Source of the DNA: Pseudomonas sp. ZH-FAD
GTDB lineage: Bacteria; Pseudomonadota; Gammaproteobacteria; Pseudomonadales; Pseudomonadaceae
DNA: 64,000 nucleotides
Assembly: GCF_002803095.1 (NCBI RefSeq)
Contig: NZ_PGLR01000016.1
Span: 1-64,000 of the forward strand
Direction of reading: 5' to 3'
A program made the position numbers and the translations under genes. This document shows positions 45,672 to 54,333 of the stretch, piece by piece (position 1 is the stretch's first letter; the number at the start of each line of letters is the position of its first letter). The notes beneath the pieces were generated by a model. That model made no database searches. It saw nothing but the letters and a program-made list of their open reading frames with translations, and was not told where the DNA came from.

Positions 45672-46535
<864 letters not shown>

Positions 46536-46554
46536 CTGCCACCGGAACCTACAC

Positions 46555-47235
46555 ATGCCGCTGTCCAAGAATGACCTCGACGCCATCCTGCTGACCCTGG
46601 AGCTGGCCTCGCTGACCACCGTGCTGCTGCTGATCATCGGCACCCCCATCGCCCTCTGGCTGGCACGCACCGACTCCTGGCTCAAGCGCCCGGTCGGCGC
46701 GGTGGTGGCGCTGCCGCTGGTGCTGCCGCCGACGGTGATCGGCTTCTATCTGCTGGTGAGCATGGGGCCCAATGGCTTCTTCGGCCAACTGACGCAGAGC
46801 CTCGGTCTCGGCACCTTCACTTTCACCTTTACCGGCCTGGTGATCGGTTCGATCTTCTATTCCCTGCCCTTCGTCGTGCAGCCGCTACAGAACGCCTTCG
46901 AGGCCATCGGCCGCGGCCCGCTGGAGGCTGCCGCGACCTTGCGCGCCAACCCCTGGGACAGTTTCTTCAGCGTGGTGCTGCCACTGGCCCGCCCGGGCTT
47001 CATCACCGCCGCCATTCTCAGCTTCGCCCATACCATCGGTGAGTTCGGCGTGGTGCTGATGATCGGCGGCAATATCCCCGGCAAGACTCAGGTGGTGTCG
47101 GTGCAGATCTACAACCACGTGGAAACCATGAACTACACCCAGGCGCACTGGCTGGCCGGCGGCATGGTGGCGTTCTCCTTCATCGTTCTGCTGGCGTTGT
47201 ACGGCGGGCGCAATGCCCGGATGAGGGCGCTGTGA
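46555..47235 (+). CDS. modB: Molybdate ABC transporter permease
   Basis: A 226-aa inner-membrane permease with five to six membrane segments and the EAA loop [27 protein letters not shown]. The start [19 protein letters not shown] is the usual ModB N terminus; an upstream in-frame ATG would read through the REP. The end [24 protein letters not shown] is highly conserved. The stop overlaps the modC start by one base. Confidence 0.95.
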
Positions 47236-48359
47236 TGTTCGGGTTCGGCAAGGCACCGATACCTGCGATCTACGACGATGGGCGCATTCGCGCGCGCTTT
47301 CTGGTCAAGCATCCAGGCTTCACCCTGGATATCGACCTCGACCTGCCCGGACGCGGCGTCAGTGCGCTGTTCGGCCATTCCGGCTCGGGCAAGACCAGTT
47401 GCCTGCGCTGCTTCGCCGGGCTGGATCGCCCGCAGCAGGGCTACCTGCAGGTGGCTGGAGAGCTCTGGCAAGACAGTGAGCGCGGTTTCTTTCTGCCGGC
47501 GCACAAACGCGCCATCGGCTACGTGTTCCAGGACGCCAACCTGTTCCCGCACCTGAGCGTGCGCAAGAACCTGGAGTACGGCCAGCGGCGCATCCCCGCC
47601 TCGCAACGCAAGGTGGCGCTGGATCAGGCGCTACAGCTGCTGGGCATCGGCCACCTGCTCGAGCGCATGCCCTCGGCGCTGTCCGGCGGCGAACGGCAGC
47701 GCGTCGGCATCGCCCGCGCGCTGGTGACCAGCCCGCGCCTGCTGCTGACGGACGAGCCGCTGGCTTCGCTGGATCTGAAGCGCAAGCAGGAAGTGCTGCC
47801 GTATCTGCAGCGCCTGCACGAGGAGCTGGACATCCCGGTACTCTACGTCAGCCATGCACCGGACGAGGTGGCGCGCCTGGCCGATCATCTGGTGCTGCTC
47901 GACGAAGGCCAGGTGCGCGCCAGCGGCCCGCTCAAGGAAATCCTGCTGCGCGCCGACCTGCCCTTCGCCAGCGACGAGGATGCCGAGGCGGTGATCGACG
48001 GCCAGGTCTGCGGTCATGATGCCGCCTACGATCTGCTGCAACTCAACCTTCCCCAAAGCGAAGCCTGCCTGCGCCTGCCCCATGCGGCGTTGCCCAACGG
48101 CCACTCGGTGCGCGTGAAGATCAAGGCACGCGATGTCAGCCTGGCGCTCAATCGCGCCGAGGATTGCAGCCTGCTCAACCTGCTGCCGGCGACGGTGGAA
48201 AGCTGGCAGGCGCTCGATGCGCAGATGCTGCTGACCCTGCGCATCGGTGATCAACGCCTGCTGGCGCGAATCACCCGCTACTCCTTCGATCAGCTGGGCA
48301 TTCATGCCGGCCAGACACTCTGGGCGCAGATCAAATCGGTGTCGTTGCTGGCGCCGTAA
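47235..48359 (+). CDS. modC: Molybdate ABC transporter ATP-binding protein
   Basis: The 374-aa ATPase has Walker [10 protein letters not shown], signature [15 protein letters not shown], Walker [13 protein letters not shown] and His-loop [15 protein letters not shown]-terminal mop-like domain ([24 protein letters not shown]) senses molybdate in the family. TGATG overlap with modB implies coupled translation; GAGGG is upstream. Confidence 0.95.
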
Positions 48360-48505: not shown

Positions 48506-49330
48506 TTACGCAATACCTGGCAACTCCAGATGCTCCGGCCCAATCTCTGCATTTCCAGCCAGCAGCAGGGCGAAGTGAATGACGTTCTCCAGCTCGCGGG
48601 TATTGCCCGGCCAGCGGTGCGCCTCCAGCACCGCCTGCGCCGCCGGGCTGATCGGCGGGATGGCCAGGCCCAGACGCGAGGCGTGGATGCCGAGGAAGTA
48701 CTCGGCCAGCGGCAGGATGTCGCCAACGCGCTGGCGCAGTGCCGGGAACAGCAGCTGACCGTCGCACAGGTAGGCGTACAGGCGCTCGTCGAAGGTGCCG
48801 GCCGCCACGGCGCGGGCCAGGTCGATGCTGCTCGCCGCCACCAGGCGCACGTCTGCCGGCAGGGCCTGGCTGGCGCCGACGCGATACACCTCGCGGGTTT
48901 CCAGCGCGGCCAGCAGCTTGCTCTGCAACGGGCGCGAAAGATCGGCGATCTCGTCCAGGTACAGCGTGCCGCCATTGGCCGAACCGAACCAGCCGGCGCG
49001 GCTGCTGGCGGCCCCGACATGGGCGCCGCCGACATGGCCGAACAGCTCGGCCTCGCCCCATTGCGGGCTGATCGCCGCGCAGCTCAGTGCGACGAACAGG
49101 CCGCCACGCTCGCTCTGCCGGTGAATGTAGCGCGCCAGCAATTCCTTGCCGGTGCCGGTCTCGCCAAGGATCAGCAGCGGCTGACCATTGCCCGCCAGCA
49201 CCTCGGCGCGCTCGCGCAACTGACGTGAACGCGGGTCGACGAATACCAGCGCCTTGGCCCTGATGCTCAGCGGACTCTTGTCCGATTCGGCGAAGGTCAG
49301 CGGCGCCGGGAAGTCGGGTGGAACACTCAT
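48506..49330 (-). CDS. Sigma-54-type AAA+ activator, no DNA-binding domain (SfnR-like)
   Basis: The 274-aa protein is a single AAA+ domain of the bacterial enhancer-binding type: Walker A GETGTGKE (56-63), Walker B GTLYLDEIAD and sensor II WPGNTRELENV. Two features are abnormal: the sigma-54 contact loop GAFTGA reads GAHVGA (102-107), and the protein ends at PGIA just after the AAA+ domain, with no Fis-type helix-turn-helix. It resembles SfnR-like regulators of organosulfur genes. It may act with a partner or as a modulator. The start MSVPPDF fits; longer forms have no support. Confidence 0.82.
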   Translation of the reverse strand: MSVPPDFPAPLTFAESDKSPLSIRAKALVFVDPRSRQLRERAEVLAGNGQPLLILGETGTGKELLARYIHRQSERGGLFVALSCAAISPQWGEAELFGHVGGAHVGAASSRAGWFGSANGGTLYLDEIADLSRPLQSKLLAALETREVYRVGASQALPADVRLVAASSIDLARAVAAGTFDERLYAYLCDGQLLFPALRQRVGDILPLAEYFLGIHASRLGLAIPPISPAAQAVLEAHRWPGNTRELENVIHFALLLAGNAEIGPEHLELPGIA

Positions 49331-49443: not shown

Positions 49444-50025
49444 TCAGGCGCGCAGGCGCGTCTGCTGTTCGATGCGGCTCTGCAGGCGATACAGATAGCC
49501 GAAGCCCTGCTCCCAATGGCGGTGCCCGGACTTCACGTTGATATGCCCGGCACCGGTGAGAATCGCCGCCTCGCTGCCCCAGGCACGCGCCAGCTCCAGG
49601 GCACGCAGGGCGCTGGCCGCCGCGTCGTTGTCGGAGCCCACCAGCAGGCTGGGGAAGGGCAGCAGATCACGCGGCATCGGCGCGAAATTCTGCAGCGGTG
49701 CGGGGCAGCCCGGGCGCTCGACATCGGCCGGCGCCACCAGCAGGGCGCCGCGTACGCGACGCAGCAGATCGATCGGTGCATGCGCCGCCCAGTGGGCGAC
49801 GGTGACGCAGCCCAGGCTGTGGGCAATGAGAATGGCAGGGCGCGGGTCGGCGGCCACGGCGCGGTTCAGCTCGCTCACCCAGTCGGCGCGCCGTGGATGG
49901 AGCCAGTCGGCCTGCTCCACCCGCGTGCTGTTCGGCAGGCTGCGCTGCCAATGGCTTTGCCAGTGCTCCTCGGGCGAGCCCTGCCAGCCCGGCAGAATCA
50001 GATAACGGATTGCTTCGCTGCCCAT
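49444..50025 (-). CDS. RBBP9/YdeN family alpha/beta hydrolase
   Basis: The 193-aa serine hydrolase has nucleophile motif AHSLGCVTVAHWA, an N-terminal ILPGWQGSPEEHWQ stretch and the catalytic His in GAGHINVKSGH, the RBBP9 signature. The Asp region is VGSDNDAAAS. Such proteins commonly lie next to sulfate/sulfonate transport genes in Pseudomonas. It diverges from oscA-sbp, and a CTAAAAAGAAT motif is 53 bases upstream. The reaction is unknown. Confidence 0.9.
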   Translation of the reverse strand: MGSEAIRYLILPGWQGSPEEHWQSHWQRSLPNSTRVEQADWLHPRRADWVSELNRAVAADPRPAILIAHSLGCVTVAHWAAHAPIDLLRRVRGALLVAPADVERPGCPAPLQNFAPMPRDLLPFPSLLVGSDNDAAASALRALELARAWGSEAAILTGAGHINVKSGHRHWEQGFGYLYRLQSRIEQQTRLRA

Positions 50026-50542: not shown

Positions 50543-51541
50543 ATGTCCCTTCGTCGTTTCGCCCTGGCCGCGCTGGCCAGTGCCCTGATCGCCGGCCCGG
50601 TGGCCGCTGCACAAACCCTGCTCAACGTGTCGTACGACCCGACCCGCGAGCTCTATACCGAATTCAACGCCGCGTTCAACAAGCACTGGCAGGGCCAGGG
50701 CAACGAAGCGGTGAACATCCAGCAATCCCACGGCGGCTCGGGCAAGCAGGCCCGTGCGGTGATCGACGGCCTGCGCGCCGACGTGGTGACCCTGGCCCTG
50801 GCCGGTGATATCGACGAGTTGTACAAGCTCGGCAAGCTGATCCCGGAAAACTGGCAGGAGCGCCTGCCGGACGCCAGCACTCCGTACACCTCGACCATCG
50901 TGTTCCTGGTGCGCAAGGGCAACCCCAAGGGCATCAAGGACTGGGATGACCTGGTCAAGCCCGGCGTGGAAGTGATCACCCCCAACCCGAAAACTTCCGG
51001 CGGCGCACGCTGGAACTTCCTCGCCGCCTGGGCCTATGCCCAGCAGAAGTACGGCAGCGAAGCCGAGGCCAAGGCCTTCACCGAGAAGCTGTACAAGAAC
51101 GTGCCGGTGCTCGACACCGGCGCCCGCGGCTCGACCATCACCTTCGTCAACAACGGCATCGGCGACGTGCTGCTGGCCTGGGAAAACGAAGCCTTCCTGG
51201 CCCTCAAGGAAGAAGGTGGCGACAACTTCGAGATCGTCGCGCCGTCGCTGTCGATCCTCGCCGAACCGCCGGTCAGCGTGGTCGACCAGAACGTCGACAA
51301 GAAAGGCACCCGCAAGGTCGCCGAGGCCTACCTGAACTACCTGTACAGCGAGGAAGGCCAGCGCATCGCCGCCAAGCACTTCTACCGTCCGCGCAACCAG
51401 GCGGTGGCGGCCGAGTTCGCCCAGCAGTTCCCGCAGCTCAAGCTGGTGACCATCGACGCTGACTTCGGCGGCTGGAAGAGCGCACAGCCGAAGTTCTTCA
51501 ACGATGGCGGCATCTTCGACCAGATCTACCAGGCGCAGTAG
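50543..51541 (+). CDS. sbp: Sulfate/thiosulfate-binding protein
   Basis: The 332-aa periplasmic protein delivers sulfate (and often thiosulfate) to CysTWA. It has a signal peptide ([22 protein letters not shown]) and Sbp/CysP motifs [46 protein letters not shown] and [24 protein letters not shown] precedes the start. Followed by a GTGCGC palindrome and cysT. Confidence 0.95.
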
Positions 51542-51566
51542 CCCGTAGGGTGCGCCGTGCGCACCA
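51541..51566. repeat. GTAGGGTGCGCCGTGCGCACC palindrome between sbp and cysT
   Basis: Same family as 48388-48445. It starts at the sbp stop codon. Another REP-type hairpin placed right after a binding-protein gene, as in modA-modB. Confidence 0.7.
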
Positions 51567-51630
51567 GTGCACGGCCCACCAGATCGTCGCAGCCAGTGGC
51601 GGGTTCCACCCGCCCTACCAAGGAGCTTGC

Positions 51631-52449
51631 ATGTCTCGCCGCACTTCCCCCGTCATACCCGGCTTCGGGCTGACGCTGGGCTACACCCTGGTGTACCTCA
51701 GCCTGTTGGTGCTGATTCCCCTGGGTGCCATGTTCGTCCACGCTGCCCAGCTCACCTGGGATCAGTTCTGGGCAATCATTTCCTCACCGCGCGTGCTGGC
51801 CGCCCTGAAGCTGAGCTTCGGCACCGCCTTTCTCGCTGCCATCATCAACGGCGTAATCGGTACCCTGCTGGCCTGGGTGCTGGTGCGCTACACCTTCCCC
51901 GGTCGCAAGATCATCGAAGCGATGATCGACCTGCCGTTCGCCCTGCCCACAGCCGTTGCCGGTATCGCCCTGACCGCGCTCTATGCGCCGGGCGGCCTGG
52001 TCGGCCAGTTCGCCACCGCCCTGGGCTTCAAGATCGCCTACACCCCGCTGGGCATCACCCTGGCGCTAACCTTCGTCACCCTGCCCTTCGTCGTGCGCAC
52101 CATCCAGCCGGTACTGGCCGACATCCCACGCGAGGTCGAGGAAGCCGCCGCCTGCCTGGGCGCCCGCCCGCTGCAGGTGGCGCGCCACGTGCTGCTGCCG
52201 GCGCTGCTGCCGGCCTGGCTGACCGGTTTCGCCCTGGCCTTCGCCCGCGGCGTCGGCGAGTACGGCTCGGTGATCTTCATCGCCGGCAATATGCCGATGA
52301 AGACCGAGATCCTGCCGCTGCTGATCATGGTGCAGCTGGACCAGTACAACTACGCCGGCGCCACCGCCATCGGCGTGCTGATGCTGGTGGTGTCGTTCAT
52401 CCTGCTGCTGCTGATCAACCTGCTGCAGCGCCGCATCAGTCGTTCGTAA
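51631..52449 (+). CDS. cysT: Sulfate/thiosulfate ABC transporter permease CysT
   Basis: A 272-aa permease with six membrane segments, [21 protein letters not shown] and the EAA loop [27 protein letters not shown]. The start at 51631 has AAGGAGC upstream; a longer form (51550) reads through the palindrome and is unlikely. CysT pairs with CysW. Confidence 0.94.
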
Positions 52450-52459
52450 GGAGCCAGGC

Positions 52460-53332
52460 ATGTCATCTGCAACCCTGACGGCCAGCGCCGCCAACAAAGC
52501 CGCGCGCCGCGGTAACGCCCTGGGCCGCCGCTTGCTGATCATTTCGGCCTGGCTGGTGTTCGCCTTCTTCCTGCTGCTGCCCTTGTTCGTGGTGGCGACC
52601 GAGGCGCTCAAACAGGGCGTCGGCGTGTTCGTCGCCTCCATCCTCGAGCCCGACGCGATCAGCGCGCTGAAGCTGACCCTGCTCGCCGTGGGCATCGCCG
52701 TGCCGCTCAACCTGGTGTTCGGCGTGGCCGCCGCCTGGTGCGTGAGCAAGTACGAGTTCCGCGGCAAGAGCATCCTGGTGACCCTGATCGACCTGCCGTT
52801 CTCGGTGTCGCCGGTGATCGCCGGTCTGATCTACGTGCTGCTGTTCGGCGCCCAGGGCTTCTTCGGCCCCTGGTTGCGCGAGCACGACATCCAGATCATC
52901 TTCGCCCTGCCCGGCATCGTCCTGGCGACCATCTTCGTCACCGTGCCCTTCGTCGCCCGCGAGCTGATCCCGCTGATGCAGGAACAAGGCACGCAGGAGG
53001 AAGAGGCGGCGCGCCTGCTCGGTGCCAACGGCTGGCAGATGTTCTGGCACGTGACCCTGCCCAATATCAAATGGGGCCTGATCTACGGCGTGGTGCTGTG
53101 CACCGCGCGGGCGATGGGCGAGTTCGGCGCGGTATCGGTGGTCTCCGGGCACATCCGCGGCTACACCAACACGCTGCCGCTGCATGTCGAGATTCTCTAT
53201 AACGAATACAATCACGTCGCCGCCTTCAGCGTTGCCAGCCTGCTGCTGCTTCTGGCGCTGTTCATCCTGCTGCTCAAGCAGTGGAGCGAATCCCGTATCA
53301 ACCGCCTGAAAGCCAGTGCTGGCGAGGAATAA
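52460..53332 (+). CDS. cysW: Sulfate/thiosulfate ABC transporter permease CysW
   Basis: A 290-aa permease with the family motifs [47 protein letters not shown] and [30 protein letters not shown]. It starts ten bases after cysT with AAGGAG upstream and is followed by cysA two bases later. Confidence 0.95.
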
Positions 53333-53334
53333 AC

Positions 53335-54333
53335 ATGAGTATCGAAATCCGCAACGTCAGCAAGAACTTCAATGCGTTCAAGGCGCTGAACGAGATCAAC
53401 CTGAACATCCAGAGCGGCGAACTGGTCGCCCTGCTCGGCCCGTCCGGCTGCGGCAAGACCACCCTGCTGCGCATCATCGCCGGCCTGGAAACCCCGGACA
53501 GCGGCACCATCGAGTTCCACGGCGAGGACGTCTCCAACCACGACGTGCGTGATCGCAACGTCGGCTTCGTGTTCCAGCACTACGCGCTGTTCCGCCACAT
53601 GACGGTGTTCGACAACGTCGCCTTCGGCCTGCGCATGAAGCCCAAGGGCCAGCGCCCGAGTGAAGAGGTGATCCAGCAGAAGGTGCACGAACTGCTCAAT
53701 CTGGTGCAGCTCGACTGGCTTGGCGATCGCTACCCCGAACAGCTGTCCGGCGGTCAGCGCCAGCGTATCGCCCTGGCCCGCGCCCTGGCCGTGGAGCCGA
53801 AAGTGCTGCTGCTCGACGAACCCTTCGGCGCGCTGGATGCCAAGGTGCGCAAGGAGCTGCGCCGCTGGCTGGCGCGCCTGCACGAGGACGTGCACCTGAC
53901 CAGCGTATTCGTCACCCACGATCAGGAAGAAGCCATGGAAGTGGCCGACCGCATCGTGGTGATGAACAAGGGCGTGATCGAGCAGATCGGCACACCGGCC
54001 GAAGTCTACGAATACCCGGCCAGCGACTTCGTCTATCACTTCCTCGGCGATGCCAACCGCCTCTATGTCGGCGGTGGCGATCATCACGTGCTGTTCCGCC
54101 CGCACGAGGTCGACCTGTCGCTGCAGCCGGCGGCCGATCACCAGAGCGGCGAGGTGCGCGACATCCGCCTGCTCGGCGCCATCACCCGCATCACCCTCAA
54201 GGTCGAGGGCCAGGACGAACTGATCGAGGCCGAGGTGGCCAAGGATCACGTCAGCCTGGACAACCTCGCCCGCGGCACCACCCTGTACTTCAAGCCCAAG
54301 GGTGGCAAGCCGGTCGGCACACCGGCCAGCTGA
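53335..54333 (+). CDS. cysA: Sulfate/thiosulfate ABC transporter ATP-binding protein
   Basis: The 332-aa ATPase energises sulfate import: Walker [11 protein letters not shown]-loop QHYALFRHM, signature [15 protein letters not shown], Walker [12 protein letters not shown], His-loop VTHDQEEA and a C-terminal TOBE domain. The start [12 protein letters not shown] is standard. Ends the oscA-sbp-cysTWA operon; GGTGGGC-type repeats follow. Confidence 0.95.

Follow-up and report, generated by a model that had tools for sequence, protein, structure and literature searches.

A conserved SfnR-derived AAA+ protein of Pseudomonas that keeps its ATP pocket but lacks the sigma-54 contact loop, both arginine fingers and a DNA-binding domain: a putative regulatory subunit of activator rings

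Introduction

Bacterial enhancer-binding proteins mostly act as homo-hexamers. SfnR, one of these AAA+ activators, is the Pseudomonas sigma-54 activator of sulfur-source use and sulfur starvation. Some relatives, TyrR, DhaR, HupR and VpsR, act on DNA. Like the protein in this report, these four have lost the sigma-54 contact loop (PMC3162934); unlike in them, no DNA-binding domain was found in our protein. In ordinary activators the GAFTGA loop contacts sigma-54, and a glutamate switch joins E108 to N64 (PMC7057263). R299 of NtrC1, analogous to R168 of PspF, contacts the gamma-phosphate in trans (PMC7175178). According to a 2011 survey, replacing the Phe or Thr at the center of GAFTGA mostly abolishes activity; the same survey placed activators without one or both outer domains in a type Ic and set apart the homologues with a defective GAFTGA (PMC3162934).

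The closest described system is that of Rhodobacter sphaeroides FleT, an activator-type AAA+ protein without DNA-binding and signal domains (PMC11999139, PMC3162934), as is the protein considered here, although FleT serves another pathway. By itself FleT fails to activate, and it assembles with FleQ into hetero-oligomers (PMC11999139). Assemblies that mix paralogous activators have also been described for HrpR and HrpS of Pseudomonas syringae and for the VnfA paralogues of Azotobacter (PMC9542535, PMC4145663); unlike our protein, those of the VnfA type have a DNA-binding domain (PMC9542535). A search of the open-licence literature found neither a conserved lineage combining loss of loop, fingers and DNA-binding domain nor any description of the present protein.

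Results and Discussion

The window analyzed here is a stretch of 64,000 nucleotides of Pseudomonas sp. ZH-FAD (NCBI RefSeq assembly GCF_002803095.1, contig NZ_PGLR01000016.1, positions 1 to 64,000). An automatic list of open reading frames (ORFs) opened the AAA+ frame at TTG 49516, upstream of ATG 49330; the latter is the start common to nearly all aligned orthologues, and a plausible ribosome site, GGAG, lies 9 nt on its 5' side. The gene and its motifs are as follows.

48506..49330, minus strand: SfnR-derived AAA+ protein, the putative pseudo-activator; start codon ATG 49330, 274 aa, coordinates including the stop
49241..49276, minus strand: N-terminal signature SPLSIRAKALVF, residues 19-30, identical in 52/54 orthologues
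49142..49165, minus strand: Walker A GETGTGKE, residues 56-63; GxxGxGKE in 54/54 orthologues
49010..49027, minus strand: L1 loop, residues 102-107, reading GAHVGA where the sigma-54 contact loop would read GAFTGA
48950..48967, minus strand: Walker B TLYLDE, residues 122-127; DE in 54/54 orthologues
48827..48835, minus strand: sensor I region, residues 166-168, with ASS for ATN; last residue Ser in 54/54
48767..48793, minus strand: arginine-finger region, residues 180-188, with FDERLYAYL for FRxDLxxRL; neither finger position is kept, and Arg stands at 183 instead
48590..48613, minus strand: sensor II WPGNTREL, residues 240-247; Arg in 54/54 orthologues

Pfam matched the protein to Sigma54_activat (PF00158; E of 1e-48), AAA_lid_14 and other AAA+ models. 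Signal and DNA-binding domains are both absent by Pfam; there is no receiver domain, as in SfnR-type proteins, and no helix-turn-helix (HTH) match. Inspection by eye of all three frames 3' of the ORF, which ends 146 bp from the convergent modC, revealed no HTH remnant. These results bear out three statements of an initial annotation made from the sequence: that Walker A, Walker B and sensor II are intact (all three lie at the expected coordinates of the translated ORF), that the loop at 49010-49027 reads GAHVGA instead of GAFTGA, and that the protein ends after the AAA+ core with no Fis-type HTH. Two further losses emerged beyond these, namely both arginine-finger positions and the sensor I Asn, which is replaced by Ser.

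A tree was calculated for 20 family members, 16 SfnR-type proteins and, as an outgroup, 23 activators of the window's own genome. A 24th activator of that genome (L024), whose locus overlaps L023, was left out of the tree and the residue comparison and its sequence inspected separately, and seven weak PF00158 matches (23 to 36 bits) lie outside the activator set. The family forms one group (100/100) nested in a 100/100 group of family and SfnR-type proteins, and it joins the SfnR-type protein(s) L128/L129 of another genus, g3, at 98/92. By this tree the window protein is an SfnR-derived paralogue and not itself an SfnR. The SfnR-type proteins of the tree are its nearest relatives found, with 47-53% identity. 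They share with the family the N-terminal segment around SIRA, the lack of a receiver domain and the sulfur context, but differ from it in having a GAFTGA, GAYTGA or GAFSGA loop, both arginine fingers, the sensor I Asn and, in the two scanned, an HTH_8-like end. The SIRA core of the SPLSIRAKALVF segment is also found in most SfnR-type proteins compared; all 24 other activators examined from the own genome lack it. The reference SfnR (L133) is so named because its gene adjoins an alkanesulfonate monooxygenase gene (over cut-off) and an SfnB/DszC-type oxidoreductase gene (below cut-off).

The losses were followed through an alignment of 54 orthologues, which leaves out a near-copy (L052), the split gene of genome G095 and repeat fetches (L077-L080, L138-L140, L143-L145). 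GAFTGA occurs in 0/54; the initial annotation had proposed to check the conservation of the exact GAHVGA and the short end, and these recur in 12/54 and 13/54, which speaks against chance or a sequencing error. The finger positions, 181 and 187, were fixed by alignment to NtrC1 and FlrC. Residue 187, the main finger, is Tyr in all 54 orthologues, and residue 181, the second finger, is H, D, N, S or L and never Arg (0/54). Both finger arginines are present in 16/16 SfnR-type proteins and in 23/23 other activators of the own genome (39/39), and L024, with FRRDLLFRL, has both as well. The glutamate-switch Asn position holds Asn in 33/54 and Ser in 21/54. Eight positions that are near-universal in the comparison activators are lost in the family (residues 116, 124, 141, 144, 181, 183, 187 and 190), and ten residues are invariant in the family and rare in the comparison activators (S19, P20, L78, G116, S117, Y124, S168, Y187, G191 and Y211). 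With Y187 and G191 invariant, the finger helix has been rebuilt and held and is not drifting, a constraint expected of an interface in use.

An AlphaFold model computed from 42 aligned sequences has a mean pLDDT of 89.7, with residues 1-30 at low confidence. The best structural matches among Foldseek's best 1000, with matches within 1 of each other taken as tied, were the AAA+ domain of FlrC, at Z 30.3 and an rmsd of 1.8 across 246 residues, and NtrC1, at Z 29.7. The predicted core is folded like an activator, and this is uninformative on activity.

The ATP pocket (P-loop, Walker B and sensor II) is kept, and the parts that, according to the literature, serve DNA reading, sigma-54 contact (GAFTGA) and arginine-finger donation are gone. 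Since the DNA-binding part, GAFTGA and the usual arginine fingers are missing, the ordinary cycle of sigma-54 activation should be beyond the protein alone. Judged by its motifs, self-sufficient sigma-54 activation is unlikely, and the protein is more probably a regulatory partner than an activator. The reading that we favor, with a probability of roughly 0.4, is a pseudo-activator, that is, a nucleotide-binding regulatory subunit that would use its AAA+ interface to dock on an active AAA+ ring. The putative partner would be SfnR-like where such a protein is present and another activator or AAA+ protein elsewhere. The subunit would accept an arginine finger and give no normal one, and the output of the ring would be tuned or blocked according to sulfur supply. 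By analogy, FleT with FleQ is the nearest precedent. The modulator of mixed hexamers suggested in the initial annotation thus remains the best reading, strengthened by the double arginine-finger loss with an intact ATP pocket, while its partner is a putative one. Several observations stand against the reading. SfnR (E<=1e-90) is missing in 69/274 family-bearing genomes, and its association with the family is uncorrected for relatedness. The SIRA signature is absent from the other activators examined in the own genome, and the gene that steadily accompanies the AAA+ gene encodes a hydrolase instead of an activator. In addition, Arg at residue 183 (49/54) might replace a finger, and mild loop changes are frequent among the orthologues, with Ser for Thr in 27/54 and Tyr for Phe in 19/54.

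SfnR was counted at a threshold of E<=1e-90, below which more distant SfnR-type paralogues could fall, and at that level it is present in 208 of 298 genomes of the genus. Family and SfnR occur together in 205 genomes; 69, the own genome included, have the family alone, 3 have SfnR alone and 21 have neither. SfnR is therefore commoner in family-bearing (205/274) than in family-lacking genomes (3/24; Fisher p of 2e-9, uncorrected for relatedness), and 19 of the 24 family-lacking genomes measure 5.0 Mb or less. SfnR may be one partner of the pseudo-activator but not the only one, the latter idea being ruled out by the family-bearing genomes without it.

The initial annotation placed the gene beside sulfate transport genes, which is right but loose, as the direct neighbors are a convergent modC and a serine hydrolase gene.

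49444..50025, minus strand: RBBP9-like serine hydrolase (PF06821), on the strand of the AAA+ gene and upstream of it
50543..54333, plus strand: sbp-cysT-cysW-cysA sulfate transport, divergent, beyond the hydrolase; all four over the cut-off of NCBIfam sulfate models
45720..48359, plus strand: modA-modB-modC molybdate transport, convergent; over the cut-off of NCBIfam modA, modB_ABC and modC_ABC

The hydrolase gene is followed by the AAA+ gene on one strand in 51/54 loci, the three exceptions being those of genus g3. At the annotated one of these three (L138), the AAA+ gene follows genes for a MetQ/NlpA-type lipoprotein and a PLP enzyme of Cys/Met metabolism. A MetQ-like gene comes after the AAA+ gene in four of six loci viewed by eye, one of them, L065, verified by family search. 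Also present at L146 are a TauD-type gene and a gene for a TauC/SsuC-type permease below cut-off; at L070, a sulfonate-binding protein scores over cut-off and a DszC/SfnB-type gene below. Either sbp or cysT lies inside the fetched flank in 10 of the 28 loci compared with the window genes. From these contexts, the gene travels with sulfur acquisition though its exact neighbors change.

Of the same 28 loci, L079, L080 and L144, which belong to the window's clade, and one other, L073, have modABC converging on the AAA+ gene. A gene for a PAS-GGDEF protein lies between hydrolase and sbp at L078:7013-8005; in P. aeruginosa, PA0285, a GGDEF/EAL enzyme, is described as sitting downstream of cysAWT-sbp (PMC10874727).

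A whole-window pattern scan for -24/-12 promoters gave 23 matches, with no excess over a shuffle mean of 44.9, and a scan with the spacer one base too short gave 31 against 43.5. As the matches are fewer than in shuffles, we make no claim of a sigma-54 promoter near the gene. Scans for sigma-70 promoters and terminators found no promoter-like site and a single terminator-like one, a level no higher than chance, and the 116-nt gap between the hydrolase and AAA+ genes folds no better than shuffles (z of -0.43).

The steady linkage to the hydrolase raises the possibility, which we rate as substantial though short of even odds, that the protein is a stand-alone ATP-binding switch outside transcription. 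It would use the retained pocket and a conserved surface of its own to control a partner unrelated to transcription, perhaps a sulfur transporter or the RBBP9-like hydrolase encoded beside it. Apart from the shared strand in 51/54 loci, a hydrolase orthologue (E<=1e-70) is missing in 12/24 family-lacking genomes, among them all 3 SfnR-only genomes, and in 0/13 of the family-bearing genomes tested (10 of the genus and 3 of g3); persistence of the family in 69 genomes without SfnR points the same way. However, the hydrolase gene of g3 is unlinked, lying elsewhere in the genome in 3/3 genomes tested, and the hydrolase is retained without a family member in the other 12/24 family-lacking genomes and in G317, of genus g2. 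Moreover, joint loss of adjacent genes may reflect a single deletion, and SfnR ancestry and sulfur context would fit a role in transcription equally well.

Variation in the loop and finger regions bears on a second alternative, an unorthodox sigma-54 activator that would act from solution, with a changed contact loop and without binding DNA. CtcC, FlgR and FleT are described as activators lacking a DNA-binding domain (PMC3162934), and loops as mildly changed as GAYSGA occur in some orthologues. The position of the central Thr is Thr in 1/54 and Ser in 27/54, and that of the Phe is His in 32/54, Tyr in 19/54 and Q, R or S in 3/54. Residue 183, Asp in ordinary activators, is Arg in 49/54 orthologues, and this residue, close to the lost fingers, could in principle act as a displaced finger in their stead. 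Against such an activator stand the loss of both usual fingers in 54/54, a central loop residue of V, A, Q, N, G or R in 26/54, the occurrence of loops as divergent as GSRGAS and GQSRPS, and the reported effect of Phe or Thr changes (PMC3162934). As a homo-ring without arginine fingers should not hydrolyze ATP in the usual way, the activator with changed partner contacts entertained in the initial annotation fares poorly, and we consider activation from solution improbable. In one further orthologue (L081, genome G239), the L1 loop is fully disrupted (ELFGHTGSRGASASS) and the GxxGxGKE P-loop is retained.

The C-terminal ends of the orthologues differ in length. In 13/54 (L031-L041, L146 and L147) the protein ends directly after the AAA+ core, and two more (L072 and L076) nearly do so; the other 39 extend 24 to 69 residues past residue 270, by 30 to 45 in 32 of them. 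When 12 tails were aligned with six SfnR-type ends, the tails, which contain short helical stretches, matched the SfnR linker and ended before the HTH. The alignment is suggestive of a correspondence between family tails and SfnR linker, and a likely order of loss would be the HTH first and then the linker in the window's clade. Pfam gave no HTH_8 match in the five family members scanned (the window protein and four others), whereas both SfnR-type controls gave a weak, sub-threshold one (E of 0.012 and 0.002). GAFTGA-defective relatives exist (PMC3162934), but given HTH matches in 0/5 against 2/2, a sigma-70-type or other DNA-binding regulator resembling TyrR or VpsR is very improbable.

Of 298 genomes sampled from the genus, 273 have a family match at E<=1e-100, and G095, in which the gene lies in two pieces on two contigs, raises the count to 274. 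This number is a lower bound, 16 of the remaining 24 genomes having been searched again in depth and five of the 24 being less than 90% complete; in these 24, the best match is another activator, with E from 1e-51 to 1e-73. Matches of the same strength in a 244-genome sample of the order came solely from the 6 genomes of the same genus and the 3 of g3, a genus of the same taxonomic family, whose orthologues are 65-66% identical to the window protein. Over 16 orthologue pairs, dN/dS is 0.05-0.16. Presence in 274/298 genomes and these ratios indicate a living gene, not decay, and the gene is kept under strong purifying selection across most sampled Pseudomonas genomes. Gene decay or a sequencing error, which the joint loss of several motifs and one domain might suggest and which the initial annotation would have seen in homologues with GAFTGA and an HTH (found in 0/54 aligned and 0/5 scanned, respectively), is rejected on genus-wide conservation, dN/dS and the same losses in separate genomes.

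A scan of the species genome collection returned at least 80 loci and was overwhelmed by general activators, which match the P-loop pattern. Eleven were inspected (L146-L156); two of them, L146 and L147, are family members, and at L154 no activator ORF was found.

To return to the pseudo-activator, a fuller version of that reading would make the family a genus-wide pseudo-ATPase, a ring subunit that takes but is unable to give an arginine finger and that, with no sigma-54 or DNA contact, sets the output of an activator ring in sulfur acquisition. In this extended form the proposal is doubtful; if true, it would provide a built-in asymmetric-ring regulator among the bacterial enhancer-binding proteins. 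Conserved loss of three features needed to stand alone, with the ATP pocket kept, implies a regulatory layer that a plain "sigma-54 interaction domain" match hides. The family would offer a natural, directly testable instance of poisoned or asymmetric rings, and it is likely to be a component so far missing from the picture of Pseudomonas sulfur regulation.

The own genome holds several other activators of note. L023 and L024 (G000:C35:78661-80422) are a pair of short HrpR/HrpS-like activators with open frames of 319 and 313 aa, which may be a type III secretion regulator pair; L023 has a GAYTGA loop, and unlike the window protein both keep their arginine fingers (FRRDLYFRL and FRRDLLFRL). The paralogue L022 (G000:C46:16443-16943), perhaps of the TyrR/PhhR kind, has the loop GAFEGA, with Thr changed to Glu. 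L012 (G000:C31:65087-65587), about 1 kb beyond the window, and L011 (C43:76280-76780) are very similar activator paralogues on different contigs.
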